Assembly: GCF_030463565.1 (NCBI RefSeq)
Contig: NC_134655.1
Location: 3,112,372 to 3,176,371, forward strand
Length of the DNA: 64,000 nt
Direction of reading: 5' to 3'
Origin: Pelecanus crispus
Lineage: Eukaryota; Chordata; Aves; Pelecaniformes; Pelecanidae
Positions 1-49,900 of the stretch are shown here, piece by piece. Position 1 is the first letter of the stretch; each line of letters begins with the position of its first letter. Made by a program: the position numbers and the translations under genes. The notes under the pieces were generated by a model, which did not search any database, had not been told where the DNA came from, and worked only from the letters and a program-made list of their open reading frames with translations.

Positions 1-1723
1 TGACCACTAAGGGGAGCTATTTATTGAGAAAATTGTGTTGTGCAATCAAGAGGCTTAAGAAAGCAAAAAAACCATCGTAGTATTCATTGTGTTACAACCG
101 TGTGCTGTCCATATCCTGATTTCAACTTTGCTTTTGTTCTCTAGGGTGAATAACTGCATTGGATTTTCTAACTACAAATTCTTTCTACTGTTCTTAGCCT
201 ATTCTTTGTTGTATTGCTTGTATATTGCTGCAACAGTCTTCAAGTATTTCATTAAGTATTGGACAGTAAGTTGTGAAATCTGGTTACTGTTTCATATCCT
301 CTGAGTCTGGTGGGGCTTAGTCACTCTTGTTACTTTTTTGCTGTGCGTCAATGGAGGGTCTGCGTTTCTTCCGTAAGGTATTTTCCTGTCCCCTGTTTTG
401 AGGATAACTCCCTTTATATGGGTGAAACGCACAAAGCGAGAAGTAAATAGGCTTCAGGAATTTCAAACTGTAGAGTTAGCTTCTGGCACAGAAGTTATGT
501 CCTTTGCCTGTTCTTGCATTTGCGTGTATGTGTATCAGAATCTTTGGAAACTTACCACAAGTTTCTTAGTTTGGAAAACTCAAATGTCGTTCAAAAGACG
601 ACACACTTCACTGAAAGAGAGCCCAGGACTGCTGTTTACAAAGATGTTCTGTGCCTTTTCAGTACACATTAGGGTCTATCATGACTCATTCACTGAAATT
701 AGAGGTGTTACAGAGGGATAAACACCGCTGGAGTTAGGCTGGGCTCTTGGACGGAAATGTGGTTCATCTTCCCAACTCTAAATACAGCTGCTGTTGTCTG
801 GCCGTATCTCTGTACTTAAAAAAAAAAACCCCAAACATCTACTGATTATGGAAATAATTGTCTTCTAAGTAGAAATCCTTAGCTGTCAACATTTGATGCT
901 TTTAAAGTGGTTGCAAGAATACCTCCTGTGCATTTCAGTCATATTACAGGAAACCATGAGTTGTGGGTGGTTTTCTTTTGTGTTGCTACCTGAACTGCCC
1001 GGGCATCTTTTGTTCCAACGTGCGCTGTATTGGTGTCTTAAGGATGCGGTCCCTTGCACTTAGAGAGCGCGAGCAAATAAGGGAAGGCACAGCGTGCAGA
1101 TCCCGGGGTTGCTACCCTGCCGTTTACTGGAACTGATGGTTTCCAGAATCTTCATTTCTTGAAGAGAATCTGCTCCCTTCTCTCCTCTGGTATCAAAGCG
1201 CAACATCCTGGCACTGCTCTGTACATATTTACTGAAAAGAAAAAAAAGGTCAAACCCCCTTGTTCATTCTCTAATCCCCATATGACTCCTTTCTCCATTT
1301 AAAAGTTGACTGAAGTAAGGTATGCTTTATTACTCAGTTATCGATTATCCTTCACATGCAAGCAATGCCAGCTGACAGTTCCAGTAAGGGACTGGCCTTT
1401 GTCTCCAGTTGTTTTGTGTCCCCTCTGCTGCTAACTCGCGAGGACTGTGCTGCAGTAACTGAACTTTGCTGTGCAGTCATTTATTAAATGTCTGTTTTTT
1501 TAATGGCGAATGCCTCACATAAAACGCCTCTGGAGATGCTCACGGGACACTAGCAGGAATTGTTTCTTAGGCTAAGAAAGGCACCGAGACTTGAGCTCTG
1601 TGGCTGCATATATGGGATGTGCAAAGGCTGAGAAATAATTTTTTTTATTTTGAGGTCCCCGCAGCCTATCTGTAGACGTGTGCTTATGAGGATCTCTGGC
1701 ACTTGACTCTCCTACTGTAGAAG
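1..1723 (+). repeat. Left arm of inverted duplication (copy of ZDHHC15 intron 6-exon 7-intron 7)
   Basis: Base 1 pairs with 45629 and base 1723 with 44213 in reverse-complement alignment. Outside a 306-bp segment present only here (about 341-646), roughly a dozen differences are visible over about 1.4 kb, near 99% identity. Similarity stops abruptly after 1723, marking one breakpoint. The other breakpoint lies left of the window. No target-site duplication or poly(A) tail is visible, and introns are included, so this is a DNA-level duplication and not a retrocopy. Confidence 0.95.
145..265 (+). pseudogene. Orphan duplicate of ZDHHC15 exon 7
   Basis: These 121 bp are identical base for base to ZDHHC15 exon 7 (45485-45365). 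They code the last base of the Trp after DHHCP, then [20 protein letters not shown] and [20 protein letters not shown]. The acceptor (TTGTTCTCTAG) and donor (ACA|GTAAGT) are intact. No exon 8 copy follows: the duplicated block ends at 1723, inside the equivalent of intron 7. Whether exon 6 or earlier exons lie left of the window is unknown. Alone it cannot make an enzyme because it lacks the DHHC motif. It lies on the UPRT strand about 5.9 kb upstream of that gene. Confidence 0.9.
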
Positions 1724-4700
1724 ACTGGTTTATGGCATCAATAAGGTGATTTATTAATTTTCATCTTCTACACATGCATACAGCCAGGTCAGCTGAATTT
1801 TTTTTTTTAGTTATTTTTTGCCTTTAAGCTGGTTAACTGTCAAGAGTCACATTTCAAACTCGCGTGAATTGTGCTGTATCCTAGTTACTGTTCTCTGAAT
1901 GCTTATTTTTAACCAAGTACTGAAACTTCTACAATTCAACTCTTAATTAGCTGACACCGTGTGGCCAGTAATAAATGTCGATACATCAGACTTTAACTGT
2001 CTGCTTTGTCTTTAAAGTTAATACTTCTAGTCCCCTGAGGACAAGAAAATATAGCGAAGAGAAAGGAAGCAAGATAACACTTAGATAGGGACAGTTAAGA
2101 AAGGATGGGAAGACAAATCCATTTATGCTACTGGCAAATAGAACAACAAAAAAGCTTCTAAATGTTTTCTTCAGTATTGCCTTCACCTCTGAAAGTCATT
2201 TCCCAATACGGTACAGAAAGACTATGTGTGTAGTGTAGACAATATCCAGTCATTATCAGTGCAATAATTCCTTATATGTGCGAGTACTAAAACAGTCTAG
2301 TTATAAATAAAGAGTTACACTCTCTGCGGTTTCGCTAGTTCTCAGTTGTTACAAACTCGCTGTGATCCCTCAGCGTGCAAGGCACCATCTCCAGTGCCTT
2401 GCTGAATGCTAATGAGCTTCCAATTAATTTAACCACAGAAAGACACCTCTTCCACATCAACACCTATTACCGGCTCCAAAATTGGTTTGTGAAGCTTAGT
2501 AGAGATACGCCCACATTTTTTTTTAGCTGCTTGTGAAAATTGGAAATCACAGCAGGCACTGTAAAATAGAGGAGTAAGATGGTCTCGAGGACCATCGTAT
2601 CGTGCCCGTACCGGGGAACTGCCTTAGCATTTACCAAATCCCTTGAAACTATTCCTAACGCAAGATAGAGAGAAGGTAAAAATGAAGAGACTACATATGG
2701 AAGTCCATATATGAACAGAGTTACTATATTTAGAGGCAGGCATGAAGCACTATATTAAGGGCATGCTTAGACCTAGCTATGCTTTAGGTCAGCTCTGAGA
2801 TTTTTCTCCCCTTCCTCCAGCTCCCCAGCTGACAGATGGTGCTGTAGTTTTGTGGCTGAGATCCAGAAGTGAAACTCTTGTCTGGGATTTAGCTTTCATC
2901 AAAGGGCATCCTGAGTTAGGACATACATATCCAAGCCGTCCCCAACTTCCTAGTCAGACCTTTCTCTTCCAAGAATTTCCTGGGATTTGTAACTTTGGAT
3001 TTGTAGCTCATTTTAATATTCCCCTTGAAGGGTTTAGCGTACCCCAACCCTATTGTTAGAAATGCTTTTTTCCTTGGATGGAGTGAGTTGGAACCATCTT
3101 CTGTCCGTACAATAAATGGGATTTCTTAATAGTTCTTCTGGTACGTCAGCAGAAAGCATTCGCAGACCTATTAGCGATATACCGATGACCTATTAGCAAC
3201 GCTCCCTCCTCTTGGACACATGCTTCGCACAGTGAAGCCGGTTTCATATAAGCATGTAAGTTGCTCGCTCTACTTCTTACCAGACTATAAATAAGCATGT
3301 GGCTTGTTGCTATTTCTTGATCAGGATTAAACGCAGTCATGATCAAACACATTCGGGATGAGAAGGGGTTTATAAGGAATGATATCAACCTGGGCCTTGA
3401 GGATTCTGTGATAAAAAAGGATGCTTCAAAAGGCCTGAATTAATAGACCCATGGGAATAATTTGAGCCAATTTTTATTGCTTTTTATAAAACCTCTTTTA
3501 CTGCAGTTGACTCTTTCACTCCAGCCTACATTTCACAGTTCACCTCCATCTGCAAATGTCCTTTTTTTTGTCCATTCTGACTACATTTCCCCTCATTGTT
3601 CTATTTGGAAATAAACAGAATAAACTAATTCCAGTTTATTGCCTCCGAAATGTCTTGATTTTATGAGGTATGTAATACCTCCACACTGGAATGTCTGTGC
3701 TTCTGCACTACACCCTGATGTATGGTTTCTACAGGAAAGCTTCCTATCTAAGTACCCACTTCCAATATCTTTTATTAGCCAGATGATGCCTTCAAAGCAT
3801 TGAGAGAAGATGAGCAAATTAGCCTTTTTTTACCTTCATTTTGCTGTTGGGGATACTGAGACGTCCCTGACACAGCTGCGCAGCGTGCCGGGGGATAAGT
3901 GCTAGCGTTCAGTGCTGACCTGGCTCTCAGGCCCCGGTTTGCTGCGCCTGCACAGCTCCTGGAAGGACAGGTGGCCGTACGCCAGCGCTACCCCAGCGCG
4001 CCCCTCCCATCAGTGCAAGGTTAGTTTGCCGCCATATGTTAGCATTTAATATTTTAGTCTTTCGGTATTGGCAGCATAGCATTTTATGGTGATTTAGGAG
4101 GTAGCGTGGAAAAAATCCAGATTAGATACCTCTTAGGATTCTACTCACAATTCTCCTCTGTGGTGAGTTCTTTCCATTCCCAGAGCATCTATTTCTTCTA
4201 CCGAGCTGCTTCGGTTATCTTTTCTGAACGCCGACTGAAGCGTGCATTAATTTCTGTCTGGCTTATCCAAGGAGATCCTCCCCTTCTACAGTAAATCTGC
4301 AGAGAAACAGATTTTTTTTTTTTTTTTTTTTTTTTGTGGCAAGCTACTTCAAACAGCCTAAGTTTATAACAGTCGTCTGTTAGCTCTCTGTGTCTACAGC
4401 ACGAGCTGTTCTCCTGGTTAGGTCGCTTTGAGGCAGGGGTTGTCATGGCCCTGACCACTGGAGCTACGTGCCCTCCGTTTCTCTCCGTGTCTCTTTCGGG
4501 GTTTGTGCGGTGCCTTGCACGGGTTTCAAGAATCTGGTCTCATGTAAATAAACTGGCATCAAAAGGAGAAAGAGAAGATTGGAACTGGAAAAAAAAGGCT
4601 GCAGTAGTAGGGGGAGGAAATAAAACCAGCAGCATTGGAGAGTTATTAAAGAAGGAACAGCAGGTAAAGGCCAAATTTGCAGGCACAATATCAGTGTGAA

Positions 4701-5639
4701 ATATATGAAGTACCTCATTAGCCTTAAAAGCGTAGGGAAAATAAAATGACAGGCATGAGCACTGAGAATGGAAATTCTAGAACTGGTGTTTTGCTCAGTC
4801 CACGATAATGGAATTTTAAAATTATTAATGATAATATTTTCCACCAAATACCACGTAGCCATTTGCTATTGTAAGCGTATACGTACATGTGTAACGCCAG
4901 ATTTTTCAGTGCAGATAATTTTCTCAGGTCTCAGCCCTTTTAATTCTAAATAGCCTAAATGAGGGGACACCAACTATCCTGTCACGCTTCCCTTAAGGAC
5001 AGGGAAGCTATTTTTTTTGCCAGCTATTTCTCTTTGGCTTTCCTGTCTTTAATTTGATGCCATTACTTCCAGTACTCCTTCCTTCTCTCATCATGAATAA
5101 CTTCTCACCCTTCTTAAAGGTTTACAGCATGGGGTAGAGTCACCCCCTAGTTATCTGTAAACTAAGCTGCTAGCATTTGGCACTTTTAAGCCCTTCTTCA
5201 AAATTAATCGCCTCCTCTCCGCCAGTCTGCTGAGGTGTTTTGTCAGTGTAGGATGAATGACAGAACGTCATTTTCAATATGCCATGGGAACACTTGAACA
5301 TTCCTCTTTGTATTTCACGAGGGGAATATATTTATTTCTTACGCAGCTGGTGCTTGCTGCAGAACTTTAGAACTGCGTTAGGCAAAAAAATCAGTGCTAG
5401 TCCGTACTGGAGAGAGCGCGAACTGAACGATGAAATGCGTGTTTTCCATCTTCGCTTGCAGGGTCTTCTTGGACGCGTGCAACAGCTTCCACCCGGCGCA
5501 GCGTACGGGCATCTGGAGCCTGCTCTTCTCTCCGTATTTAACGAAGACAAGGCTGGAACAGTACAGGTGTCTCCGCGTGGTATTGGGAGGTTTGGCAACA
5601 CCTGTTTGTCGAGTGATTTTGTACATCTCTGTTAGAGAG
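1724..5639. other. Non-coding stretch between inverted-repeat arm and UPRT promoter
   Basis: No exon, RNA gene or transposon recognised. It contains a GC-rich pocket at about 3840-4020, a run of 24 T at 4312-4335, and only short chance open frames. Part of the far upstream UPRT promoter may lie at its right end. Confidence 0.6.
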
Positions 5640-6117
5640 GCATTCGAGCCACGCCAACCACCGCGACACCGCAATGCAGGGTGCTCTGCCCCCCCCGGAC
5701 ATGCCGTGCTGCAGGGCTGAGCCCCCCGCTCCCTCACGCGCACGCGGCCCCGGCCGCCGGGCAGCCGCACCCAGGCGCAGCTCACGGCCCCGCGTTCGGC
5801 CCGCCCCGCCCCGCCGCTCCTCCCCCGCCCCCGCTCCCTGCCGGGGCCCCGCACCCCACACTGCGCGCGCCCTCCGCCGCGCCGCCGCGCCACGCTCCGA
5901 GGGGCGGCTCGCGCCCCGCCAGCCAGAGGCGCGAGGCGCGGGCGCGCGGCGGCGAGCGGACGTCAGCGCGCCGGGGGACGCCGACACCAACGCCCCGCCC
6001 CCCCCGCTGCCTGCGCTCCCGCCGCGCCCGTGAGTGGCAGCGCCGGCAGCCAATCGAGCGAGGGCGCGCCGGGCGGCGCGCTGCCCCCTGCCGCTCCGGC
6101 GGCGGCGCGCCCCGCGC

Positions 6118-6404
6118 ATGGAGGCGATGCCCTGCCAGAACCAGCGGCTCGGCCCGCGGCCGCAGGACGAGCAGCCGCCGCCGGCGACGGCGGGCGGCGG
6201 CTCCCGGCTGATCCGCTTCGCGGAGCCCAGCGAGGACAGCGGCTGCCCCAGCCCGGACAGCAGCAGCAGCAGCAGCGGCAGCAACGGCGGGGTCGCGGCG
6301 GCGATCCCCGCGGGGGAGGGCGGCGCGCCGGCGATGGGGCCGCAGCTGAAGCTGCTGCCCATGAACGACCAGCTCCGGGAGCTCCAGACCATCATCAGGG
6401 ACAA
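6118..6404 (+). CDS. UPRT: UPRT coding exon 1
   Basis: Codes residues 1-95 and two bases of Lys96; donor AA|GTGAGC follows. The ATG at 6118 is the first in frame, with a TGA at 6031 upstream. A second in-frame ATG at 6127 begins MPCQNQ, which resembles an internal MPCHNQ of human UPRT, so translation could also begin there. Residues 48-53 are six Ser codons made of a pure (AGC)6 run. The conserved block starts around residue 76. GC content is extreme because the exon sits inside the CpG island. Confidence 0.93.
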
Positions 6405-9400
6405 GTGAGCGCCGGCGGGGCGGGGGGCGGCGGGCAGCGTGGGCTGAGGAGGAGCCGGGGCGGGGCGCAGCGGGGCTGAGGGGCGATCGCCGCTTCCCTC
6501 AGGGAGCCGCGGCCGGGCCCGCTCTGGGCCGGCCTCCAGCGCGCGCTGGGCGCAGGCTCCTGAGGGATGCGGCGGCGGGCGCTGCCCCGGCCGGGCGGTG
6601 CGGCCCCGGGGCCTGCGGCCGTGCGGCCTTTTCTGGGGACGCGTGGCCGGAGCGGAGCGAGGGGAGGGGAGGGGAGGTGTGCGGAGGGAGGGGAGGTGTG
6701 CGCCGGGAGGGGAGGTGTGCGCCGGCCCGCCCGCCCCTCACGGCCGCCTCGCCCCTCACGGCCGCCTCGCCTCGCCTCGCCTCAGCGGTCCGCAGCGCTC
6801 CCGGGGATTTCCACGGCCGGCTCCGCCCCGGTGCCCTCAGCCACGAAGGCGTTAATTCGGCGGCTTTGGAAACCTCTTGCAGGTTTTTCGCGCTCCCTGA
6901 AGTTTTGGCGTACCTTCGCGGCCTGGGCGCCGCGCAGCCTGCTTGCCGCATCACCCCACAGAAGCCTGTAAAACCCTCCGGAGGGGAGGCTGGGGGGCTG
7001 ATTGTCCGCCGTCGTGCCCGGCAGGAGCTGGGTCCCGTTACCGCTGTCGGGATATGGCGTGCTGTACGCAGGAGCGGGGGGCTCAGGTATAGGGGCACGG
7101 ACTGGATTTAAGGGCTGGCAAAGGACAGGCGCTGGGGTTGGGAATCAGTGGCAGGGAAGGGGTTGGGAATCAGTGGCAGGGAAGGGGTTGGGAATCAGTG
7201 GCAGGGAAGGGGTTGGGAATCAGTGGCAGGGAAGCCGCAGGAGTTTGCTGAAGGTTGGGACTGCCGGATAAAGGAAAATGCAAGGGCGGTGGGGTGGGGG
7301 GGGGTGTGAAGGGTTTGGGGACAAGTTTGGCCAGAAGAAAACAGATCACAAGGGCAGCCCGGGGGAGCTAGGAATAAGAAAAGAGATTGTAGAAAAGTGG
7401 GACTTGCTGAAATGGAAATCAGATGTTTGAGCAGCAGGGATGGGAACAAATTAGGCAAAAAGAATAGTTTTGGAACAAGAAGTTGGGGATAGCGTAGAGA
7501 CTAGGCCACGGTGGGATGGGAGAGAGACAGCATTGAGGAGGGAGGCGGATGAAGGCAGCAGACAAGGAGAGAAGAGTTTGTTTACTTAGGGCACATTACC
7601 TGAGGCTGCCTTTTTTTGAAGGCACTATTTTCCACTGTTGACACTTTGTGTCGCCAGGAGTCCTTGCTGCCACCGTACCTTGTGAGACGTGAAGGTGTTA
7701 TTCCAGTTTTACAAATCTTAAGCTGAAGTGCAGAAATCCATGCAAAATTGTGCCCCACTGCTGAACATCCAATGTGAGATACTTAAGACCCAGTGTTTTA
7801 TTATGCCTTACAGCGTCGCAGATGTTGAAAGCATACCTCCCACTGATCGCATTTGTAGCTTTGATTGTTCAGCACTTGGAAGGTGATATTATAAGGTATT
7901 AAATTTAGCATGCAACATATGACAAACACAAGTAGCGGCCATCTATTAAAAGCGCAATTTGCCTACTGTGATGCAAGGACCACGGGCAGACACAGAGGTG
8001 TGAAATCAAGTTTATCGATAGAGTGATCAGGTTCTGAATAAAACCTTCTCTTCCTGCAACGCATTGGCTTTCTAACATCTGCAGTAACTAACACATAGCA
8101 CAGACACGGCTCTTCCCCTTGTTCCGTATCTGTCCATCTGCGTAGTCTATGTTTTGGTATTTCCTGGTTTTTGAGTGCTTAACTTTGTAGCTAGTAACAC
8201 TAATACATTGATTCCTAGTTTTTACTTTCATTATAAATGATCCAGCCACCAAGCTGGGAGGCGTGGGGTTGCTACTCTCCCCTTAATTGGTTTAGTGGTG
8301 GCCTTGGTAGTGTTAGGTTAATGGTTGGACTGGATGATCTTAAAGGTCTTTTCCAACCTAAATGATTCTATGATTCTATGATTTCTATGCAAAACTAATC
8401 ATCATCTCTCAAAGACAATACCTACATTAATTTTCTTAGCTTACATGAGCCGTGTTACCTTAAACTAGTTGTTTTTTTTTTTTTTTAAATTAATCTTCAA
8501 AGCATTGTGGAAGAACATAATGTGATTGCAGGCAGGCGCATGCAGAGGTAGCGCAGCCTCGATGTAAGGAGGGCAGTTGCAGCGAGACCACACGAAAGAT
8601 CTCTGCAGGTGAGAATGCCTGCCTGGCAGCTTCCCTGCAGAGCAGGCAGGGAAGTTGTAAGTGGGCTAAGCAGAGAGAGAGCGAGCCGAAGTCCAAACTA
8701 GGCTCAGTGATGGCCTATAAAAGCTTTTGAGGTTAGTGAAGAGGAAATAGCATATAGTTTTAATACCTAGGCGAATACTAGCAATGCAGTTACTGTACCC
8801 AGCTAGGGGTTTTTTTATTATCATTTTGTTGCAAGTAGGTTTTGAATGCTTGCAAATACATTTAAAAAGTTTCTGGTTATAGTGAGCTTACCCAGAAACC
8901 AGCAGCTGATATTTTAACTTGGAAGAGATTTTTTTAGAGTCGCATCAGCTTCATTGCACAAGACTTTGGTAAGGGGAAATACAGAGTAAGACTTGTAAAC
9001 AAGGAATTACTCATAACAGCTGCAGCGGTAGCAAACTGTGCTTTATTCTGAGCGTGACGCTGCCCCGGCCGTGCAGACGTAACTGTCGCTTCCAAGCTCC
9101 CTTCCCAGCCAGTGAGGAAAACTGGACAACAGCCTGCTCAGAAAGGCAGGTGTAGGCTTTGTATGTAAGGACAGTAGGGAAACATTATTTTTACGTTCTG
9201 TCCCAGAAAGTCAGCTGCATCTCAGTAAATAAGAGACCTCGGACCGGCCTATTTTGGTGCCAGTCATTCAGAAAGATGCTGAAACGTGCTCAGCTGCAAG
9301 GGTGAGAGGATTTCTTACGCACTGGTTAGAAACTGTTGCAGTAACCTTTCCCTGGGCAGGTGTAATCTGCCTTAAGACGACTGTATGACCACTGTAGCGT

Positions 9401-12400
9401 TCAAACTAAGGGCTGAAAGAAAATCCTCAGAAGAACTATCGTATTTGTGAATAAGGAGCTATACGGCTAAGAGGAGCTACTGGTCAAAAAATCCGATTTA
9501 AACTGACAAAAGGGTGTGTTCACATACACTGCTTGGGGAAGAGGGAAAAGCTGTGTCATCTACAGGGCAATTAGATATCTATCACTTAATCTTTCTTTCT
9601 GGATTAAAAAAAGAACAGGTAACACCAGAGCTGCCTTAACTCAAGGAGGATATTTGGATTACTTAATGCTGTAGAAGATGGATGTTCCAGGTACAGCAAT
9701 CACCTGAAAAGGTCATGAAAAGGGCAGAAGTTAAAAGGCAAGCTACTGGGGGGAGAGAAACAGCACAAAAGTAGGGAAAACCCCTCAATTTAGGACTATT
9801 ACTGTGACGTAAGGAAGGGATAGATACTCCCAGTGCAACGCAAGTTAGAATCAGGCGTGCTTACGTGGAGCTAAGGATGGTCAGGCGAGATGCAGAAGAC
9901 CTCAGGGACTCTATTTTGTCCATAGTGTGAGCTGCTCAGAAAAGTGGAAGGCTCTTTCCTTGTTCCTGAGAGGATTCAGAGAAAGAAATCACAGCCTTTC
10001 AACTGGAATAACGGTCCAGTTTATAAAAGAAAAACTCACCTTCACGTGGCTGGTTGTCATGTCCTGTGGTGGGTTCAGAGGCAGCTGGCTGAAACAGTAA
10101 TGGCCATCAGACTAAAATGACCACGTATTTCTTTTGCTTCATTACAGTTAACGAGAACTAGGTCTGTGTGCCAGAATTGGGGAGATGGATAGATCACCTC
10201 GAGCGTGCGCAGGTTTGCGTGCTTTTCCTCAGGCTTGTTTGCTTTTCCATCTAGCGAACGGCTTAATGGGTGGGCAGATGCCTTTTACACTGCATGTTGG
10301 ATATGAATTTTGAGTCCTCTAATGGGATGTGAATGGAGGCGTTGAGGTATTGAAAGTTTGGGAACAAACAGGTACAGCCTCTTTCGAGGAGGGTATGATC
10401 TCAAAGTCATGGCTGGCCTGCAGAGATCAGAACCAGGGATCTGGAAGCTGACATGAGTAGCGCAGCAATTTGTAACGTAGAGCTCTGGTTTCTGTAGAAG
10501 CAAATTCATTAGCTCTGATTGGTAGCGTCATGTTAACTCCTGATTTAACAACAGACAGGATTTAAATGTAAGTATTTAAAGGTTATTGTGTCTGTTATGG
10601 GAGATCATTCCGTTGTGTTCTGCTAAGGCTTCTTATTCCCTAGGGAGCTGAGTGAACAATATAGAAATGAAGACAGTAAAGCGGTGGGACACACAGTCCT
10701 GACTGCGATGCAGAGCAGGATGATTCAGGAGCATAACTCGCCTGTGATGAGTGAAGATGAGTGCTGCAGGCAGGAAGGGCGGGATCCCTTTCACATACCA
10801 CCCCCCCCAGCCCAGGCACTGAAAAAAATTAAGTACTGAAGTACATTAAGTACTAAAGTGCTGCAGGTGGAACATGGTCCTGTTTCCCAGCTACATCATC
10901 TCCCCTTAATGGCAACAGCTCATCCAGTGCTTTCAGTTTTCTCATAAGGGCCTTTTATAAATTCTGTTTTGGGAAGCGGCTTTTTTTCCATCTTGCCTTC
11001 ACAGGACCCTGGGCGTCTCTCAGGAAGTTCTTCTGTAAGGTGATTAGAGAATTACTAAAGCGCGTCAGACCAGGACCCACATAGCCTACAGCCATATCGG
11101 TGCTTGTGACTAGTACCAAGTGCTAAAGCAGGAGGTAACCCTGCAGTTAGTTTGTATTACGGTACATTCCCAAAAAACATTTCTTCTCAACTCTTAAGAC
11201 ACGCACGTGACTAATTGTACATCAGGCATGTTTCCATACCTTCAGAAAGAAAGTGAAACTAATTTCTATTGTTCAACAAAAGGTTTGTGGTGTTAGCCGT
11301 GTGCTACAAGTATCAGGTTTTAAGGCCTCACTTTTTTAGATGTTGACTTGTTACTTGACTAAGAAGCTGAAAACGTTTCTAGTCTGCCATTGATCATTAC
11401 TTTCTATACCTCTATCTGGTATTTAAGGTGAACAGTTGCAGTGTTTTCACATAAGCCTTTTTTTCTGGCCCCTAGCAATTCTCATATGATGTGGGGCTTG
11501 AAATCTGGTCACAGCTTTCCAGCTGCCGGTGTACGAGAGGTCTGTCATTTTCAGACTATTATTTGTCTCTTATTTTTATGCACCCTTGTTTTGTGTTGTC
11601 CCCCTCCCCTCAGAAAACAGGCATAACTGACTAAGGGTGTTCAGTGAACTGTGCATAAAAACATCTCTCTGCAAGGACAGAGTAGTTAAAGCCTAGTAAT
11701 CTGTATTGATAAACTCATAGTATTCACTCTAAACATGTATTGCTTTGCAGTCAAAACTGTAGTCTTGACATTGTTGGGTTTGTCTTACCACCTTTTCATG
11801 AAATGTGGCTAAATTTTCTGAAATGCCACAGTCTAGTCTGGAAGAACCTAGATGCGCCACCTACACACTTTGCTACTTCCTTTTTGTTTTTTTTTTTAAA
11901 TATTTGTACAAACCACAGATGGAAATATGAATCCCTTCAAAAATCTTAAAAAAAATCAGTTTGTGTCATTGTAGGGTTTGGGGGGTTGGTTTTTGTTGGT
12001 TTGGGATTGGGGTTTTTTTGAGCATTGCCTTTCTGGTTAATGTCAAAGTAGCAGCAAGTTATGAATATCCTGTTATTACCAGAAAGAAGGAAAAACCAAA
12101 AAAAACCCAGCGCTTTTAATAATGTGTTATTAGCACAAGGAAAGACATTAGATTAGGCTGACACTCTTTTTAAAACACCTTTTTTTTAGTGTGGCTAAGT
12201 TACCAGTTGCCCAGGAAATAAGCAGACAAACGTCTTGACTTTCACTCAGGTAAACATAAGATGTTGCAGAATCTTGGGGATTAAGTGCAAAACTCTCTTT
12301 ATGGTATTTAAGGAGACATTCAGAGTATCATGGTTGGAAAGTGAGAGAGGGGTATGCCTGCTGTGATGAACAAAAAATTGCACTAAAAAGTACCTGCTTA

Positions 12401-15400
12401 GGATGCTGATGATTTTGTCCGAGTGTTTTTAAGGCTAGCATGCTGTACGTGTTGGCTCCTTAATTGGAAGTTCGTCCTACTTCCGTGTAGTGAAAGTTGG
12501 TCTTGACAGGGGAAGCAGGGTGTTCAAATCTGCTTTTAAAATTCCAGGCCTTTAACATGGCATGCTTACCCAGCACGTAGCAGGAGGAAGTGAGCTTATT
12601 CTGCCTTCTGAATGGGCCAAAAGCCGTGCAGTGACATGAGCAAAAAGTTGGACCCAAGCGAATGGGACAGCAGAGAGGTGTGTCCATGGGAATACTCATT
12701 CATCCCTGCTCATTTTGGTCTCAAGTTCACTAATCCTGTCACACTGTGAACAAATTCCAGATAAGATATATGTCCTGCTTATCAACTTCCGTCTCAGGGC
12801 TAGGGATCTGCATTGTCATTGTCCCATGGTTTCTGATTGACTTAAGAACGGGCGGAGCAAAGCTCTCTTGCTCGGAGCTGTAGGGGACGTACCAGGTTGG
12901 TGCACATCTGAGCTTGCCAGGTGTTTTGGAACTGAGCTGGAACCGTAGTACAATGGAAAACCTACAGAATATCATCCTTATGTTTTTATGCTTTAATTGC
13001 TACTGGTACAGTGCGGCAAGGCTGCCAGTAGTAGGAGGCAAACCACTCCATTAGCTCACTGCATCTCGATCTTCGCCACCAAGCAGGGAACCCGTGAGGC
13101 AGAATCTTTGTGGGATAAGTTTTGTATACGGTAGGAGACTTTTCTCTGAACTGCCTTTAGAATATATTGTCCTTGAATTAATATTATGCTTAAGCAACAT
13201 TCTTAAAATTATTCCCCAATTTAAAATACAAATTATTACCTTTTTCAGGAAATCCAGTAGAGGAGACTTCGTATTTTCTGCTGATCGTCTGGTAGGTGAA
13301 GAATTTCTTCTTCTGGGTATTGTACTTTGTAATGCTTCCATAAAATGGGTCTTCCAGGCTAGAATAACGGTGGCGTGAGAGCAACTTTTCTACACAAAGG
13401 AAACTGCTGTTTGACGGCAACTTTCTGTATAGCAACTTCTGTTCTCTGTTATGGACTGCTTTCATCTCAAAGGGTTCCATGTTATTATCAAACACAGCTA
13501 CTTCAGGACAGAGAGCGGTAGTAATAAGAGAATACTGTTTAAAAACAGATGCACAGAGGCTAGAGCTAATTCAGTTTTACTTTGAAACAGTGCTTTTGAT
13601 CTTGTGAACAGAGCCGTACAGTTTTGTACAGTCTAGATGTTAACAATTGCTTGCATGCTGAGGTGCCTCCTGGCACTTGTTGTGTATTAGATTAGTAGTT
13701 CTGGGTGCATCCACACTAGGAATTTGGTTTTAGCCATATGGTAGTTACTAGCAGGGACAAAGCAATTAGAAGCTTTCACACATTTTAGTAAGTCAGAACA
13801 AAGACTGTTGGGAATGCAACATTTATGTAATTTAAATTACACGCTTAAAGAAAACCGCAACACTCACACCCACACAGGTACTTCCTCGTATTTGTGAGGG
13901 TGTTTGCTGTTTGCAAATCCAGGTGCATTAACAAGGAAAGTCTTCCTTTCCCCCTCTGCCAAAGGTGAGTCCAGAGGCCATTCAATTACCAGCACTGTTT
14001 GCTACAGCAGGCAGGTTTCACTGTGATGAGCTCAATCTTAATCCATGCCCGATCCAGGCTTGCTCAGGGCTTAGGTATGACCACAACCTAAGACTGTGAC
14101 TGCAGTGCTTTTTATCTTTGTAGCTTTTCCACCTTTCCCCCCTGCTTTTCCCTTCTTGAGGATGTTTCTTGCATTCCCATTCACCAAGAACAGTAACGGC
14201 TCAAGCTAACAAATCCAACCACTCATAACCTGTAGATCAAGCGACTGACTGGACTGCCGCCTTTGCCACTAATACTTCATAATGGACAGGCAGAAAGTCG
14301 CAGCCCCAACTTCGCCCTGTGCCAGCAATTCTCAGCAGATACCATTTAAATAGACACATCCTTTACAGTTCATTGGACGAGTAGGAATGGCCCAGGAAAC
14401 ATCCACCACCCATGAAAGACTAGCTCAACTATGTGTTGTTCTTCCTGGGTTTTGTGGTTTCAGGTTTTTTGCATGCTTAAACGTGCAGATAAGATTCGGG
14501 AAGCCAACACAGGTCAACACCAGCAATCCCACACATCTACAAGGTGGTCTCCAGTGCAGGGGTCAGGCCCCTTCCCCACCAGTGCTCCTCCTTTCACAGG
14601 AAGGGTTTCTGGTTAACGTTCTTATTTTACCTTGTATTAGGTTCCCATCGTGCTGCACCCTTTAAGGAACATTCATTCCTGCCAACTTCTTTGAATTAAA
14701 GAGAAGCATGATATTCCTAATCTGTATTTAAAAAAAAAAGAGATCAACAATGGCTATTCTAATACTGACAGGAAAACCCTTAACAGTCTTGACTGTACCT
14801 TATTGTCATTAATTAGTGCGAAGGACCTCTCCCACGTACCTTCTCACTTTACTCTGAAGTCCTGTGCCTTCTGAGGGAAGCACTGATTTTTTTTCCCCCC
14901 TTGTTGCTAGAAACTGCAGCTTCCAGGCAGGGAGCTAAGTTCAGGCCCTTGTACCAGCATCTTCTACAGGCTGGGCAGCGCTTGCACAGGTAGGGAGCTG
15001 ATCTTCACAGAAATGCCCCTGTTTGCTGGTCATGCAGATGTTTGCTACAGAACCTGCTGGTCTCTTTTCCATTTTGTAGGAGGAATTTTATGCAAAACAA
15101 TATGTAGGACTATCTCATTTTCTGGATGTTATTCCTAGGTGTGGCAAAGAACAGTTACAATTTCACGTGGGACGTGGTCTCTACTAAATTTGGTGGGGTG
15201 CACACATAGTTAAGACTCGCTATGTTTTCCACCCAGTTAGCAAACAGAGCTTAATGGCAGGATGTAATACATGAAGAGAAGAAACATATGCATGGGATCG
15301 TAGGGTAACAAAATACATCTTGTTGCAGGGAGAAAAACGAGAATCAAGTTAAGCTTGCTACTAGCTTGGCAGTTGTTAGTGGTGGTATCTCATAAGGTCA

Positions 15401-18400
15401 CCACAGGAAGAGGTCTTCAGGAGGGATTCTACAGCGGATGAATTTCTGCTGGTACAGGTTTTTCTTCTGGCAGTTCGTTTCACACGTAAGGGGATGACAC
15501 AAACGTTCCAGGATTCTGGTGAGAGAAAGGAGTTAACAGGCGGTAAAGGTTAGCAGGGAGTTTCTGAAAGCCACTGCCAGCGCTGTGATCCTGAAGCTGG
15601 AAGATGTGGGGCTGAAGTCATGAGGGTGAAGACAACCCATCTTGTGTTTGCGAAGGAGGAGAGGCTGCTGCGGGAGGTAAGCCTCTGTCTAACGCAGGAG
15701 ACGATCAATCATTATGACTTGCGGTGGCAGATGTCTGGACAGGTAGACCTCAAAGCGATAGTGAGACCAACTTGAGAAACACCAGCAGACAACTCCTCTC
15801 AGTGCAAGAGGCTCACACCGAACCCTTCCACGCGCTGTGGAAGCGTTTAATTGATGTCACCGTGCAGGATTGCTGTAGAACTAGTGAGATGCTCGCAAAG
15901 CCCACAGCATTTTTACTGAGACCACCTGAGACTTTTGTTCCAAGGCCTGCTCAGTGGGAGGTACACCGTAAGCTGGGTCCAGCCCTGTGATGTTAAGCTG
16001 GTGCTGCGCACCGGCTGAGCGGTGTGGGCTAAGAGACCAGGCAGGTAAGGAGGAGGAGACACCTCCCCAGAGGCATAGAGGACATGGCGTGTGTAGAGTT
16101 TTGGCAAGGATCAAGCAAAATCGACTTGCAGCCTGGATTCAGGCAGGCGTTTGTTGTTTACGCAGCACTGACCTAAGCAGCTCACAAGCACAGCGGTGCT
16201 TCTCAGCAGGAGGTAGATTTTGTGGTTTGACTGGAGGTCTGAGGTTGAGGAATTAATTAGTTTCTCAGCCCTACCAGCAACTCCCTGCGTAACACTGAAC
16301 AGGTCACTTCACCTTTCTGCCCACCTACCTCTCTTTTGGGGGGGTGCTAATGCATACTTTAAAAGCAGTTGAAATCCTGAGGTGCAAAGAGCTGTATAGA
16401 TACAAAGTACGGCTCACAGCCCCACTACTCTTCCTTCCCGTCAGCTTCCAGGAAAAACTACAAAATAATGGGTTAGAGGATCCCCCGAGGAATTACTTGG
16501 AAATTAGGTGATGCATGGCTATCACATAAAATACAGTTAGACTGACTACTGTCTTCCCACAAACAGGGGAAGATGATAATGGTCGGATTTATTTGCATTC
16601 TGGTTTCTTGGCATTTAAATGCTTCACCTTGTTCCAAATTGCAGGCAGGTGGAATTGTTGCAACATGCAGCTGCTGAGGATCACGGATACCTTTTGGGGT
16701 GGCTCTAAAAGGGCTCCCATTTTTCCAGTTTTGTCTGTCAGAGCACCGCCACCTCTGACTGCACCCTGGCTGTTCCTTATTTAGTGATTACACCTCTTCC
16801 AAACGAGAGTACTGTCAGCTTCCTTTCTGTAGTTGCCCGTATCCAAATTTCTCTGTTCACGGACTCTGAGGAACTGGTCGAACCTGATTTCCTCAGCGGT
16901 ATTTGAGTGTGGTAGGGAGGCTTTATTCATGTGCTTAATTGGCCGAGAAAAGGATAATTCACTAACATTTTCATATCCTTGAAATGTTCATGTGGTAGTT
17001 AGCTAAAAACTCCTTGGACCTCTATTACCTGTTTTTGCTAACAGTTCTAACAGATCTCGTACTAATGAAGGTTCGAAGCAAGCAGTATTCCCTGTGCTTA
17101 CTGCAAAGGCTCTGGGGTAAATCTTAAATGTAGAACTGTAATAAATAAGCACGTCGACATATAATTTTGTATATCAGCATTAAATGCTTAATCTAAAACT
17201 TCAGCATAACTCTGTAAGCCTTGACAGTTTAACTAGGCCTGCTAGAATTTAACATCCCTTTCAGCTTACACACACACACCCCCCCCCCAGTTAAAAATAG
17301 ACTTTGTTATTGATAACTTTAATTCACGGTTTTAATTTCTGGTCAAACTCTTCTACCTTGGGACCAAAGCTTTACTTGCCTGCTTCATGTGGGGCCAGAA
17401 TAATACCTGTTTTAGCTGCCAAGCCATGGCAACTGCCTCTCTGGGAGAGGAGCAGGGCTGCTGGCTCTCAGGGCCAGAGAGAAAAGAGGTGAAAATTATA
17501 ATCCCCGAGCGTGGGGGTGGCAGCAAGCGTAGTGCAAAAATAAATGTTTTATCAACACTAACAAGTTTACAGAAGAATCCTTCCCAGCCTCTGTATAAAA
17601 CATTGATACAGATAGTAAAACCAAGGAGCTTATTTGACTATAGACTATCACTGGTTTACTCTAAACCTTTGGCAGATAATGTGGAGCGAGGCTAACCCTG
17701 TCAACATGACAGCAGTATGGGGAAAAAAGCGTTTCTCCCAAACCTGGCTCATAGGTTGGCTTTTTTTGGCGAAATAACTTAAAAAAAATAAAACTGTGTA
17801 CAAATGTCCCAGAAACCTAAAATTAAATCAAGGATTTCTTGGCTTGTTTATCTGAGATGATGTGTCTTTCAGTAGGAGAACGCTGGTGCCTTCAGGCTCA
17901 GGATTAAAGTGACTGAGTCAAAAGACTGAGTCAAAAACCCTACTTGCAGAGAGACAGGAGGAAGAAGAGGAGGAGGAGGAAGGTAGTAGAGCTGGCTTCT
18001 TTACATATGCTTCCTGCAGCCACCAAACGTGCAATGAGTCAAGCACAAAAGGGACTGACAGTTCAGAAGGACCCGTTTCCCACATGCAGTTGTGCTACAG
18101 CGGCAATATTGCCCCCTGAATTGCTTTTGCAGTCTTTTGCTCCCGTTATACGTCGGTTGCACCCTTTGACCCCTCACTGATTTGGCCTGACCACCACCCC
18201 TGAACATGGCTGCCACAAACCCAACTCTAGGAAAAAATTGCTGTACTAAAATGACTAAAAATACCTGCAAAGAGGGATTGTAAATTTTAAGGGACCGTTT
18301 CTGATTCCTAGCAGAGGCTGCCTGTGTGCTAGGAACTGGGGCAGAACGGAAGAACAGAAAAAAATCTTCCAGTCTGCTCTGCTCTGTTTCTGAAGTAAGA

Positions 18401-43900: not shown

Positions 43901-46900
43901 CAGAGTGAGGGTTTGCTACTAATTTTTTTTATGTACCAGAGCCAGGACAATCACAGCTTCCCACCTGGGCACAAGAAAAATGCCCTATGCCCACAGGGAA
44001 ACAAGCACGCACAAGCTCTTGAAGCCCTGTTTATCTTCTGCTGAGTTTCCTGTCTGTATATTGAAATTCTGCACCTCCTACAATATAAGGCATGCCAAGA
44101 AAACCTGGCCTCCATAGCTATAGCAATCAGATAGCGTTACAACTGAGCATAGAGGGTTTGAAAGACTTTAAAAGCCAAGCAGGATCTTATAAGCAGAAGA
44201 AACGCTTCTTTCCTTCTATAGTAGGAGAGTCAAGTGCCAGAGATCCTCATAAGCACACGTCTACAGATAGGCTGCGGGGACCTCAAAGTAAAAAAATTAT
44301 TTCTCAGCCTTTGCACATCCCATATATGCAGCCACAGAGCTCAAGTCTCGGTGCCTTTCTTAGCCTAAGAAACAATTCCTGCTAGTGTCCCGTGAGCATC
44401 TCCAGAGGCGTTTTATGTGAGGCATTCGCCATTAAAAAACCAGACATTTAATAAATGACTGCACAGCAAAGTTCAGTTACTGCAGCACAGTCCTCGCGAG
44501 TTAGCAGCAGAGGGGACACAAAACAACTGGAGACAAAGGCCAGTCCCTTACTGGAACTGTCAGCTGGCATTGCTTGCATGTGAAGGATAATCGATAACTG
44601 AGTAATAAAGCATACCTTACTTCAGTCAACTTTTAAATGGAGAAAGGAGTCATATGGGGATTAGAGAATGAACAAGGGGGTTTGACCTTTTTTTTCTTTT
44701 CAGTAAATATGTACAGAGCAGTGCCAGGATGTTGCGCTTTGATACCAGAGGAGAGAAGGGAGCAGATTCTCTTCAAGAAATGAAGATTCTGGAAACCATC
44801 AGTTCCAGTAAACGGCAGGGGAGCAACCCCGGGATCTGCACGCTGTGCCTTCCCTTATTTGCTCGCGCTCTCTAAGTGCAAGGGACCGCATCCTTAAGAC
44901 ACCAATACAGCGCACGTTGGAACAAAAGATGCCCGGGCAGTTCAGGTAGCAACACAAAAGAAAACCACCCACAACTCATGGTTTCCTGTAATATGACTGA
45001 AATGCACAGGAGGTATTCTTGCAACCACTTTAAAAGCATCAAATGTTGACAGCTAAGGATTTCTACTTAGAAGACAATTATTTCCATAATCAGTAGATGT
45101 TTGGGGTTTTTTTTTTTAAGTACAGAGATACGGCCAGACAACAGCAGCTGTATTTAGAGTTGGGAAGATGAACCACATTTCCGTCCAAGAGCCCAGCCTA
45201 ACTCCAGCGGTGTTTATCCCTCTGTAACACCTCTAATTTCAGTGAATGAGTCATGATAGACCCTAATGTGTACTGAAAAGGCACCAGAACAAAAAAGTAA
45301 CAAGAGTGACTAAGCCCCACCAGACTCAGAGTATATGAAAAAGTAACCAGATTTCACAACTTACTGTCCAATACTTAATGAAATACTTGAAGACTGTTGC
45401 AGCAATATACAAGCAATACAACAAAGAATAGGCTAAGAACAGTAGAAAGAATTTGTAGTTAGAAAATCCAATGCAGTTATTCACCCTAGAGAACAAAAGC
45501 AAAGTTGAAATCAGGATATGGACAGCACACGGTTGTAACACAATGAATACTACAAATTTTTTTTTGCTTTCTTAAGCCTCTTGATTACACAACACAATTT
45601 TCTCAATAAATAGCTCCCCTTAGTGGTCAAAATGAAATATAATGAAAATCTCTGCTTTTCACTTGAAGATTCCTTGCTAAGCCACGTAAAAGGACTGTTC
45701 GTGTTTTTGGAATCTGTTTTAAAGTTGGTACCACTGGAAAATTTGGCTCTCATTACTCAATGCCTGTTCCTTGTCTGCAAAGGGAATCACACCTGGGATT
45801 TCTGTGTTACTTTATTCATTTGCAAAAGTCAGGAGCCAGATTCACCACTGCTTGTTCGTTTACATAAAAAGGCCAAGTAAACCCAAATTTGACTGTAATT
45901 CTCCATGCACAGGACAACTCTAAAAAGGAACAAGGGAATGCAGAGAAAACAGTAAGTGTTTGCCTCAAAACTCAGGTTTGAAAAATCCTTTACAACTGAG
46001 GAACACCAGGGAGGTTCAGGCGGGGAAATGGTGGTGTTGCTTCTGATTTCTGAAATCTTCCATTTTAAAAAAAGGAGTTTTAAACATTTAGTGGCAGCAA
46101 TTCTCAAAAAGTGTAAAGCTTAATTCATCCGTGCATCATTCTACACAAACTGCCTCTGACCATGCACAGGTGGCAGGCATCACTGCAGAAACAATCTGCG
46201 TGTAAATATTATTATTATTGAAAGCAACCACCAACTGCATGCTGAAACGATTATGTACCCCAAATTAAAGGCTTAGTTGAAGTCCCTTTAAAATTTGAAT
46301 CATAGTCAAAGAGCGAAGTAGCACTTGGGTTTTAAATTATGTTGCTTAACAGCTTTTTTACACATAGGTTATGGAACAAACGTGAATGATCTGTCTTGCA
46401 AAATATCGAACATTTCAGGCAACTGTACAGTGTCATCCTTTTATAAATTTCCCAACATAAAGAGATGCATGGTCTAAACTGAGAGAGGCATACAGACACT
46501 ATTCTGTGGAAGAAATGTATTTAAACAACCTCTCCTTTCAGAAAATTACAACCCAGTATCTAGGACATACCATGGACAGTGATGATCCATTTTTAGCACA
46601 CATCTGGAAAAGGACAAAAAAGAAAAATGGAAGATTTTTAGTTGGTACTTAATTACCAACTGCAGATCAATAGCAAAAGACACTTTTTTGGGGTGAGATT
46701 TCTACATGACACAAACTCAAGATGATACTGTCTCTTTGAATTTTTTAAGGGAGGTGTCATTTTAAGATGGAACACTTGTTCCTTTTTCAAGATCAACCAG
46801 TGACCTTGCTACTCTGCAAGATAAAAAGAAATTAAAACAATTTCTGCCCTAGAGGGATTAAAACTTTTGCAAAACACCACAGGTAAAGGCCTGGAATATT

Positions 46901-49900
46901 AAAAAAAAACAAAACTGTAAAAAACAAAAATCAAAATCATACTTTATTTTAACCTGCCTAGGTTAACCAGTTAATTTTCAGCAGATGGCATGCTTTCGAG
47001 CAGCTTAATGCTGATACACTTGTAGGTGTGGGAAGCGCAAACACTTGAGGGCCACAAATAGCAGAAAGGCAAATGCCAATGCTGTCAGACACGGACATAC
47101 ACCGGTGACTGCCGCTGGGACAGAGGTACTTGGGTGCCTTTACGTGTAAAAAGACACGTGAAGGACCAGCCCATTTACATAACTTTGTGGTGATCGCATT
47201 CACTTCAGCGCAAAACAATCCAGTAACTTACATAGCGCAAACAGAACAATGGTGACAGCGATCAGGTTTGATTAGCTGGCATCTGTCACAGAATCGAACA
47301 CCTGAAAGGAAAGACACATTAATACCAAGTAACAGAAGAGGGTTCTTTTTTCACATTAGTTAATATTCTGCTCATTTCCTAACCATTGATATTCTTTCCT
47401 CTAGCCCTTCAAAAGATGAGTGCGTTTGCAGCTGACTTTTGCCGCCAGGTCATAATCAGATAAGCAACGCTCAGAATTCTTCTGGAGACTTGCAGATGCG
47501 GGGAACAATCCTCACTGCAAAGCATACAACCAGCTGAAAAGCCATAAAACAAAATTGTACGCTTATCTCTGGCTTCCACATTTACTCAGACTTTACATAC
47601 CTTCCATTTTGATCATTGCCTATATAGCAGTTCTTTACTTGAGAATTCTTTGGCTTGTCCGACAGAAATGAACACGTCAGAGCCTCCAGTATGAACCCGG
47701 ATTTCTTTTAAGCTTTGGAAGGAGTGCAGCATGCATTTAATCACAGAACAAGGTGCAATAATCTGTTTGCAGAACTATGTCCTGCATGTCTAAGCTAGGC
47801 GCCATTTTAAGCAAAAACAACTCCAGAGTTTGTCATTCTATCACGAAACGCAGACAACAGCAGTAGGCTTTTGCACCGTAAACGCAAAGGGCAACGTACT
47901 GCTTCTCAAAGGCAGCACCTGGTACTCCTCTGAAGATGAATGGAAGCGTTCAAGGCTTTTTTGCTTTCCCAAACATAAAACCTGAGAGAAAAGGCATTAC
48001 AATTATTTGCACAAGAGTTACTCGGCGCACGCAGCGGCACTAGGAACGCCCCGTTGGGCGGCAGCATCGCCTGGATTGCCAGCCTGTGCTACCTTAGCGT
48101 GCTTGAGTAGATTTAGAGAAACAGAGCGCTCTGCTTGGCTGACCTCCGTTCCCCGTTCTCGTGTACACCGGCAACTTCCTTGCGATTTCGGCGAGGATTT
48201 GCCTCTGCACCTCCGGCCTTTCTTCATTTTCATAGCGTTCTTTGTCAGCATAGGACATGTGGTACTAGAAGCAGAAGTCACGAGAGGAGCAGTTACCCAT
48301 GGGTAGCAGACATAATATTTCAAATACAGGCAAGTTTGGAAACATTTTTACCTCCCGCTCCTCTGAATGAGATTAATCTGACGTGAAAATGTGTTTGTTA
48401 AGAAGACAAAGAGGGCTAGGAAGTGCTGGGCAGCCAGAATACTATGCAATTCGTCAATAAGAAACACAAAAATTAAATTAAGGATCACAAACCAACATAC
48501 TCTAGAATTGCTACTACTGCTGCCTTAGATTACTATTTTACACGAAGAACATTACTAACCACGATAAGGACACTTTGAGCACTTCCCCCGTGAGCAAGAA
48601 CCTGTCCCCAGCCACAGTTTTGTATTTCTAAAACTGGGATTAGTTGTTATTTATAAATTTACATTCTTGTAATTAGGAACTGATTACAGTCATGTATATT
48701 TGGAATGCCACACAAACATTGTCCTCCTTCTATTGCTCCAAACATAGTGTTTTATGAGTATTTCATAAAGAGGTAAAACAAAACTTAAAAAAAAATTCCA
48801 CCAATCTGAGCAACATGAAAAAGTAAATATTTGGTAGAAAAAGAATTCAAACAAATGCCTGCCTCTGACTGTCTTGTGCTCAAACCACTAAATCATACTC
48901 TTGTCCTAAAATAAGCCACCTGCGTTAAGAAAACAATATGAAATCCTTAAGTATTATTCATGAAACAATTTACTTTTGTCACAGCGAAGCCCCGTTTCTC
49001 TTTACCATAGGATGTTGTTACATTTATCTTTCATGATGCTGCTGACCAGGGAAGTACAAGGACTGGAGCTACGTGTATACCTAGCCCAAATTAAAAGCCA
49101 TACGCTGTGCACATAGCCACAGTCCTCACCTCACAGACATGCGACGTCAGAATCTCGGCATGCTTAGAAGGAAAATGATTCTTCTATCCCTCCCTATCAC
49201 AAGAAAGAGTCTGACAAATGAAGCCAACTTCACCACCACCAGGAGACCTACTCCAGCTGTAAAGGGCTCCCAGCAGAGCAGGCAATGGTGGACTTTGGTG
49301 GGACACTGAACGTTCACGTATGCACCACGAGAGTCTGGCTCAGGAGATGAAGAAAACCCACTACCGTTACAAATGTGCCTGTTCCCACCTGCACTGCAAT
49401 GTCTTCCATGAGTGAAAACCAAAACTGAAGGTCCTTATTCAGGAGACTCCAGTAAGGCTGGTTAAAGAAGGTCCTCAGGATTTGGCTTGCAACTTGTTAA
49501 ATGCTTAGAGATCAATGACACTATAAATATGTAAGTTAATAATCACCAATCCTATTATTCTCAACATGAAAAACCCTGTCGGCTCCTGGAAAATCTGAAA
49601 AGGCAGCTTCAAAAGTTAACACCATCCCTGATTTAAATCATGCTCCTTGGGGAGTTAAAGGATTCTCAGACCGGTAAATTACTCGGTTTTTATGGACAAC
49701 TCTAGGTCACTTTCCATCTCTTTAGGAAATCCCACCAGTTGTCCAGATCTAGATTGAAGGACTTTTGAGTTCTCTTTAGCATCCCTGCTTTCATTCTGCA
49801 ATGAACAGAAAGTGCTCGGACTCTTACCTTTTTGCCTGGCTGCACTGGGAGAGTAAAAATAGACTTCCAATATGTCCACACAAAGAGCACAAAGAGAATA

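Follow-up and report, generated by a model that had tools for sequence, protein, structure and literature searches.

A patchwork inverted duplication of ZDHHC15 and UPRT-flanking sequence in Pelecanus crispus, probably copied during break repair

In a stretch of 64,000 nucleotides from Pelecanus crispus (the window, positions 3112372-3176371 of contig C13, NC_134655.1, which has 25,477,300 bases) and in the DNA adjoining its left edge, we find a patchwork of inverted copies of segments from the gene ZDHHC15 and from the upstream flank of the gene UPRT. The patchwork is located between ABCB7 and UPRT, two genes pointing apart. With a probability of about 0.68, we regard it as a genuine and fairly young compound duplication that arose in the ABCB7-UPRT interval by DNA synthesis in the course of double-strand break repair. 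For its characterization, the sequence was read beyond the window for 54 kb on its left and 18 kb on its right, which amounts to a joined 136,000 bases, and the genome (1,314,409,820 bases in 310 contigs) was searched in a procedure in which the best candidates alone were scored and very common words were skipped. Leftward coordinates are given as 0 or negative numbers, and the position on C13 is obtained by adding 3112371 to the window position w.

An earlier note had described a recent inverted duplication of a single ZDHHC15 segment at the left edge of the window. Comparison of the window with itself recovers this duplication where it had been placed, with positions 1-340 being the reverse complement of 45629-45290 (97.9% identity) and positions 645-1723 that of 45291-44213 (99.4%, E = 0). 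The count of about a dozen differences is confirmed by 11 substitutions and 2 one-base indels in 1,420 aligned columns, whereas the extra stretch in the left arm, previously given as a 306-bp indel, measures 304 bp (341-644). The suspicion that the duplicated unit might be larger was well founded, as identity reaches base 1 and continues for 2,947 bases more beyond the window edge, to give an inverted copy of 4,670 bp in total. Instead of a single inverted segment, the extension reveals a patchwork, with another ZDHHC15 piece, a stretch of 431 bp and the inverted UPRT flank following further left. Its pieces, their order, their orientation and their identity are known. From the left, it consists of an inverted copy of the UPRT flank (A), the 431-bp stretch, a first ZDHHC15 piece (B1), five bases, a second ZDHHC15 piece (B2), the 304-bp stretch and a third ZDHHC15 piece (B3), followed by a region termed U and by the source of A. 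Four of the six pieces have templates, the stretches of 431 and 304 bp being those without. The four copied pieces are all inverted relative to their sources, every one of them ends abruptly, and identities of 98.0-99.4% bear out the recent appearance that had been ascribed to the duplication. Intron sequence is kept around exons 4 and 7, in agreement with the proposed copying at the DNA level. One of the 121 nucleotides of exon 4 is changed in the copy compared to the parent, and B1 and B2 are joined by five untemplated-looking bases at a place where the source contains 1,920 bp. The arms of B3 are 1,079 bp long, with a longest identical run of 463 bp.

Each piece is of low copy number. A genome search with positions 1-1723 returned five rows, comprising the arm itself, both pieces of the other arm and two weak matches, one of 133 bp on C1 (82%) and one of 139 bp on C4 (79%), which we interpret as exons of paralogous DHHC genes. 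With 1724-6100 and 43500-50200 as queries, no other good copy was detected in the genome; the former detected 13 weak matches to the G+C-rich UPRT start (70-82% identical, at most about 200 bp) and the latter five exon-length matches on C1 and C4, again presumably paralogous DHHC genes. Segmental duplications are customarily defined as sequences of at least 1 kb and at least 90% identity that are not transposons. A and B3 are of such length and identity, B1 and B2 are singly shorter than 1 kb, and each piece is found at its source and in the copy, with otherwise weak partial matches only.

Clear microhomology is found at two junctions only, the right end of the copied A (J2) and the left end of U (J7). 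Here, a 9-bp direct repeat of sequence GTAGAAGAC flanks the ZDHHC15-containing composite. With this repeat at two junctions, the previous assertion that there is no target duplication may not hold. The first 8 bases of GTAGAAGAC form the word GTAGAAGA (1717-1724, the left end of U), which is the reverse complement of 4194-4201, where A starts. Of 50,000 random spacers measuring 0.5-7 kb, 114 did at least as well as U and A in sharing such an inverted 8-base word, and of 20,000 random pairs, 28 equalled the 9-base direct repeat at J2 and J7, with both words having been chosen post hoc. These short repeats agree weakly with synthesis during break repair.

From the described arrangement we infer a double-strand break between ABCB7 and UPRT. 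In a first step, the broken end by U would have folded back, with its last eight bases pairing with their complement at 4194-4201, and synthesis from the folded end would have duplicated the UPRT flank A in outward direction as far as 5711. The new end would then have been joined to the opposite side of the break, resulting in inverted A, U and A in succession. In a second step, a composite of 3.14 kb, containing the ZDHHC15 pieces and the 431-bp single-copy stretch, would have been inserted at the junction of inverted A and U and left the 9-bp repeat; the actual gap between both copies of A is 5.6 kb, owing to this insert. Later, the parent ZDHHC15 intron would have lost 304 bp that the copy retains. 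Copying during break repair appears likely, whereas the order of two steps is a preference only. Concerning the 304 bp, we infer that they probably are intron 7 sequence lost from the parent and that the copy keeps the older state. The stretch is single-copy, which makes a loss from the parent simpler, since an insertion would need a source that has vanished, and the deletion requires just a one-base overlap (G) at its ends.

Table 1. Coordinates of the copied pieces, their sources and associated stretches.
Feature	Position	Strand	Correspondence or content	Identity
Copy of A	-2946..-1426		inverted copy of 4194-5711	98.0% over 1,523 columns
Source A	4194..5711	+	UPRT upstream flank, to edge of G+C-rich UPRT start region	
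431-bp stretch	-1425..-995		found once in genome	
B1 copy	-994..-71		inverted copy of 47616-48539; carries exon 4 copy	99.2%
Source B1	47616..48539	-	ZDHHC15 exon 4 at 48264-48144	
B2 copy	-65..340	+	inverted copy of 45290-45695; window shows only 1-340	98.0% over 406 bp
Source B2	45290..45695	-	ZDHHC15 exon 7 at 45485-45365	
Exon 7 copy	145..265	+	AG and GT splice sites kept	121/121 nt identical to parent
304-bp stretch	341..644		in copy, not in parent arm; single copy in genome	
B3 copy	645..1723	+	inverted copy of 44213-45291, ZDHHC15 intron 7	99.4%, 1,080 columns
Source B3	44213..45291	-		
Skipped source	45696..47615	-	1,920 bp; exons 5 (47301-47232) and 6 (46603-46571), absent from copy	
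9-bp direct repeat GTAGAAGAC	1717..1725 (right-hand copy)	+	other copy at right end of copied A, ending -1425	
U	1724..4193		2,470 bp, no second copy found in genome search; spacer of proposed fold-back	

Across all pieces, 40 of 3,923 sites differ from their sources. Changes cluster at -1473 to -1445 and at 72-76, which we count, like the five bases joining B1 and B2, among the observations in favour of break-repair copying. After trimming, in which nine changes within a disturbed patch next to J2 were omitted, the four at 72-76 were taken as a single change and position 1717 was excluded, 27 of 3,875 sites differ, and the divergence of A (12 of 1,470) is similar to that of the B pieces (15 of 2,408, P = 0.55). 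A test for even divergence among the four blocks gave P = 0.19. Within the window, the first 340 bp contain 7 changes compared to 4 in the rest (P = 0.006, or P = 0.10 with the cluster counted once). With an assumed rate of 2e-9 substitutions per site and year, these values would place the patchwork at an age of about 1.8-2.6 million years.

Several observations weigh against break-repair copying in two steps. The reconstruction draws on one assembled haplotype. Both junction tests share the same eight letters, which were picked post hoc, and are uncorrected for the number of junctions and offsets. The letters TAGAAG are also found at the edge of the parent B3, which offers a possible origin for the letters at J7. 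No clear microhomology was seen at J1, and an assessment of J3 would need the template of the 431 bp, which the genome search did not reveal. Finally, the ratio of transitions to transversions is 17:2 in A and B1 compared to 4:8 in B2 and B3 (P = 0.002, in a post hoc comparison) and the contrast persists after trimming (2:5 in B2 and B3, P = 0.006), for which a single history provides no explanation.

Among the alternatives, one continuous event of the kind described as fork stalling and template switching (FoSTeS) or microhomology-mediated break-induced replication (MMBIR) ranks highest, although we still consider it improbable. In such an event, the growing end would have switched from B3 to B2 and B1, then to the template of the 431 bp and lastly to A, copying each of them, and would finally have joined the left side. 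This course would suit the shared orientation and similar divergence of the four pieces. Priming at 44213 by the end of U (lower strand, TCTTCTAC) is conceivable with one mismatch, which would account for the difference at position 1717, but it would be by chance that the direct repeat has a ninth base and that GTAGAAGA is used again at J2. As an explanation, a continuous chain of template switches performs nearly as well as two steps, and the data do not separate them.

Somewhat less probable is an artefact of the assembly, in which a chimaeric read or sequence belonging to the second haplotype would have been placed wrongly. The divergence of about 0.7-1.0% is inside the range of bird heterozygosity, for which an excerpt of PMC9516828 lists 0.95% in zebra finch and 0.34% in hummingbird, and allelic differences inside a species can equal that of the patchwork. 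The same excerpt attributes 0.5-2.3% of two bird assemblies of the Vertebrate Genomes Project to false duplications. The excess of transversions in B2 and B3 might also reflect errors. However, the inversion, the reordering, the gap of 1,920 bp and two single-copy stretches would all be unexpected in a haplotype copy, and no additional copy was found in the genome searches. An assembly gap between copies, the commonest state of false duplications, is absent, with 0 N in the joined 136,000 bases. The earlier note had left an artefact open as one option, which the uninterrupted sequence and the reordered pieces render less likely. Taken as a whole, the interpretation given there is partly supported.

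We assign very little weight to a circular intermediate, where the ends of 4194-48539 would have been joined into a circle that lost most of its length and was then inserted in reverse. When followed in source direction, the copy reads from 44213 to 48539 and continues from 4194 to 5711, as expected from such a closure, but 431 bp of other sequence are found at the supposed point of closure and the circle would need to have shed almost 39 kb. The order and orientation of the pieces, which no single inversion, palindrome or retrocopy would produce, exclude the simpler scenarios. Introns are kept around exons 4 and 7, which rules out a retrocopy; a simple palindrome would read inverted B and then inverted A from the left, whereas the copy reads inverted A and then inverted B; and a staggered-break inversion with duplicated ends predicts a duplicate at either end, whereas here both are on one side. 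A transposon or RNA gene was equally rejected, since a search of the window against Rfam gave 0 matches and each piece is of low copy number. Visual inspection of both ends of the composite insert revealed no terminal inverted repeat.

The comparison with known systems draws on excerpts of the cited reports. The first step of the proposed mechanism resembles human fold-back inverted duplications in having an inverted copy by its source, an unduplicated spacer of a few kb (2,470 bp in case of U) and, less certainly, a short inverted word at the spacer ends (PMC3907307). In the human cases, spacers range from 766 to 70,466 bp with a median of 3,428, and 13 junctions show inverted microhomology of 2-8 bp (PMC3907307). 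These duplications are large and accompanied by terminal deletions, translocations or rings (PMC3907307), in contrast to A, which extends over 1.5 kb, is internal and carries a composite insert at its junction. Templated insertions and MMBIR-like switching may share with the patchwork the use of several pieces from nearby templates, their inversion and short homologies at some joins (PMC8421209, PMC11724301). However, the events covered by these excerpts are mostly far shorter, with a template range of at most 100 bp in MMBSearch and yeast fold-backs of mostly about 5-34 bp (PMC8421209, PMC11724301), whereas here the pieces are 0.4-1.5 kb long with sources up to 50 kb off.

With its two inverted and near-identical copies, one intronic and one outside the gene, B3 shows the structure of an F8-int1h-type repeat. 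In the FLNA/EMD inversion HsInv0389, the gene-holding segment reportedly spans about 40-50 kb. Such a segment between inverted repeats is a feature also of the arrangement described here, but the repeats of HsInv0389 are outside genes and its inversion is polymorphic (PMC3961182), whereas one of the repeats in our case is within ZDHHC15. The likeness to int1h and int22h of F8 is that a segment of an intron recurs, inverted and nearly identical, outside the gene (PMC7507428). It is limited by the distance of the F8 copies, which are about 126 kb and 400 kb off compared to about 42.5 kb here, and by the recurrent gene-splitting inversion observed in F8 (PMC7507428), whereas the ZDHHC15 case is known from one haplotype. 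Judged by titles and abstract openings, none of the papers found on ZDHHC15 in connection with UPRT, ABCB7, birds or inverted duplication describes the patchwork.

The neighbouring genes were located with human proteins of ZDHHC15, UPRT and ABCB7. ZDHHC15 is encoded on the minus strand, with its first exon near 57.1 kb and exons 3 to 10, in a numbering of our own, within 49922-40823 and bounded by AG and GT at the listed boundaries. A small exon 2 was not found in our reading of the gene in the window. The joined exons (269 residues) contain a DHHC domain (Pfam PF01529, 125.6 bits), and their best match of known structure is the palmitoyltransferase 6bms (500 bits), which we take to be fish DHHC15, compared to 384 bits for human DHHC20. 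A scan with these 269 residues for relatives in viral contigs found one stretch that fit the pattern, of which 0 were confirmed. The equivalent scan of genome contigs found 11 stretches with one confirmed, a 36% match to the DHHC region at L001:5001-5558 in a record named Verrucomicrobiaceae bacterium, which is perhaps a eukaryotic contamination in the bin and of no use as outgroup. At 51775-52671, an open frame of 298 codons without Pfam match at 0.001 presumably resembles the end of a CR1-type reverse transcriptase; it ends in a repeat family that recurs at 8.3, 41.2 and 79.9 kb as well as beyond the left window edge. UPRT occupies about 6121 to 24514 of the plus strand, with the Pfam domain UPRTase detected in the single exon tested, and directly after its exon 1, a 25-bp unit is repeated in four exact head-to-tail copies (7134-7234). 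Beyond the left edge of the window, the minus strand encodes ABCB7, of which 13 stretches were matched between -14885 and -47212. Near -5.1 kb, a G+C-rich stretch contains a weak candidate (E 0.11), with a reading frame, for the first ABCB7 exon. This stretch, which adjoins the likely ABCB7 start, also holds a tandem array of 52-bp period (-5886 to -5440), whose copies are 94-98% alike in overlapping alignments.

When the copies of exons 4 and 7 are joined, no frame is open through both, so that a protein or a working partial gene is unlikely and the copy is probably inert. As a caution for annotation, no ZDHHC15-like gene should be called upstream of UPRT. The B3 arms face each other over 42.5 kb, and their recombination would invert UPRT together with the final exons of ZDHHC15 and split the latter gene between exon 7 and exon 8. 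An inverted repeat of 1.1 kb with one arm inside ZDHHC15 makes a concrete prediction of inversion, and by analogy to F8 in haemophilia A, the UPRT-ZDHHC15 region may act as an inversion switch, with the species carrying a recurrent or polymorphic inversion of about 42.5 kb that splits the gene, although we regard this as a long shot. So far as an assembly can show, the duplication appears real and would be an ordinary type of event that is unusually legible. In that case, it would constitute a fairly young and well-kept germ-line record of break repair by copying, with sources, spacer and junctions still to be read. Since the copy may retain intron sequence that the gene itself seems to have lost, it also illustrates that a copy is not necessarily in the derived state throughout.
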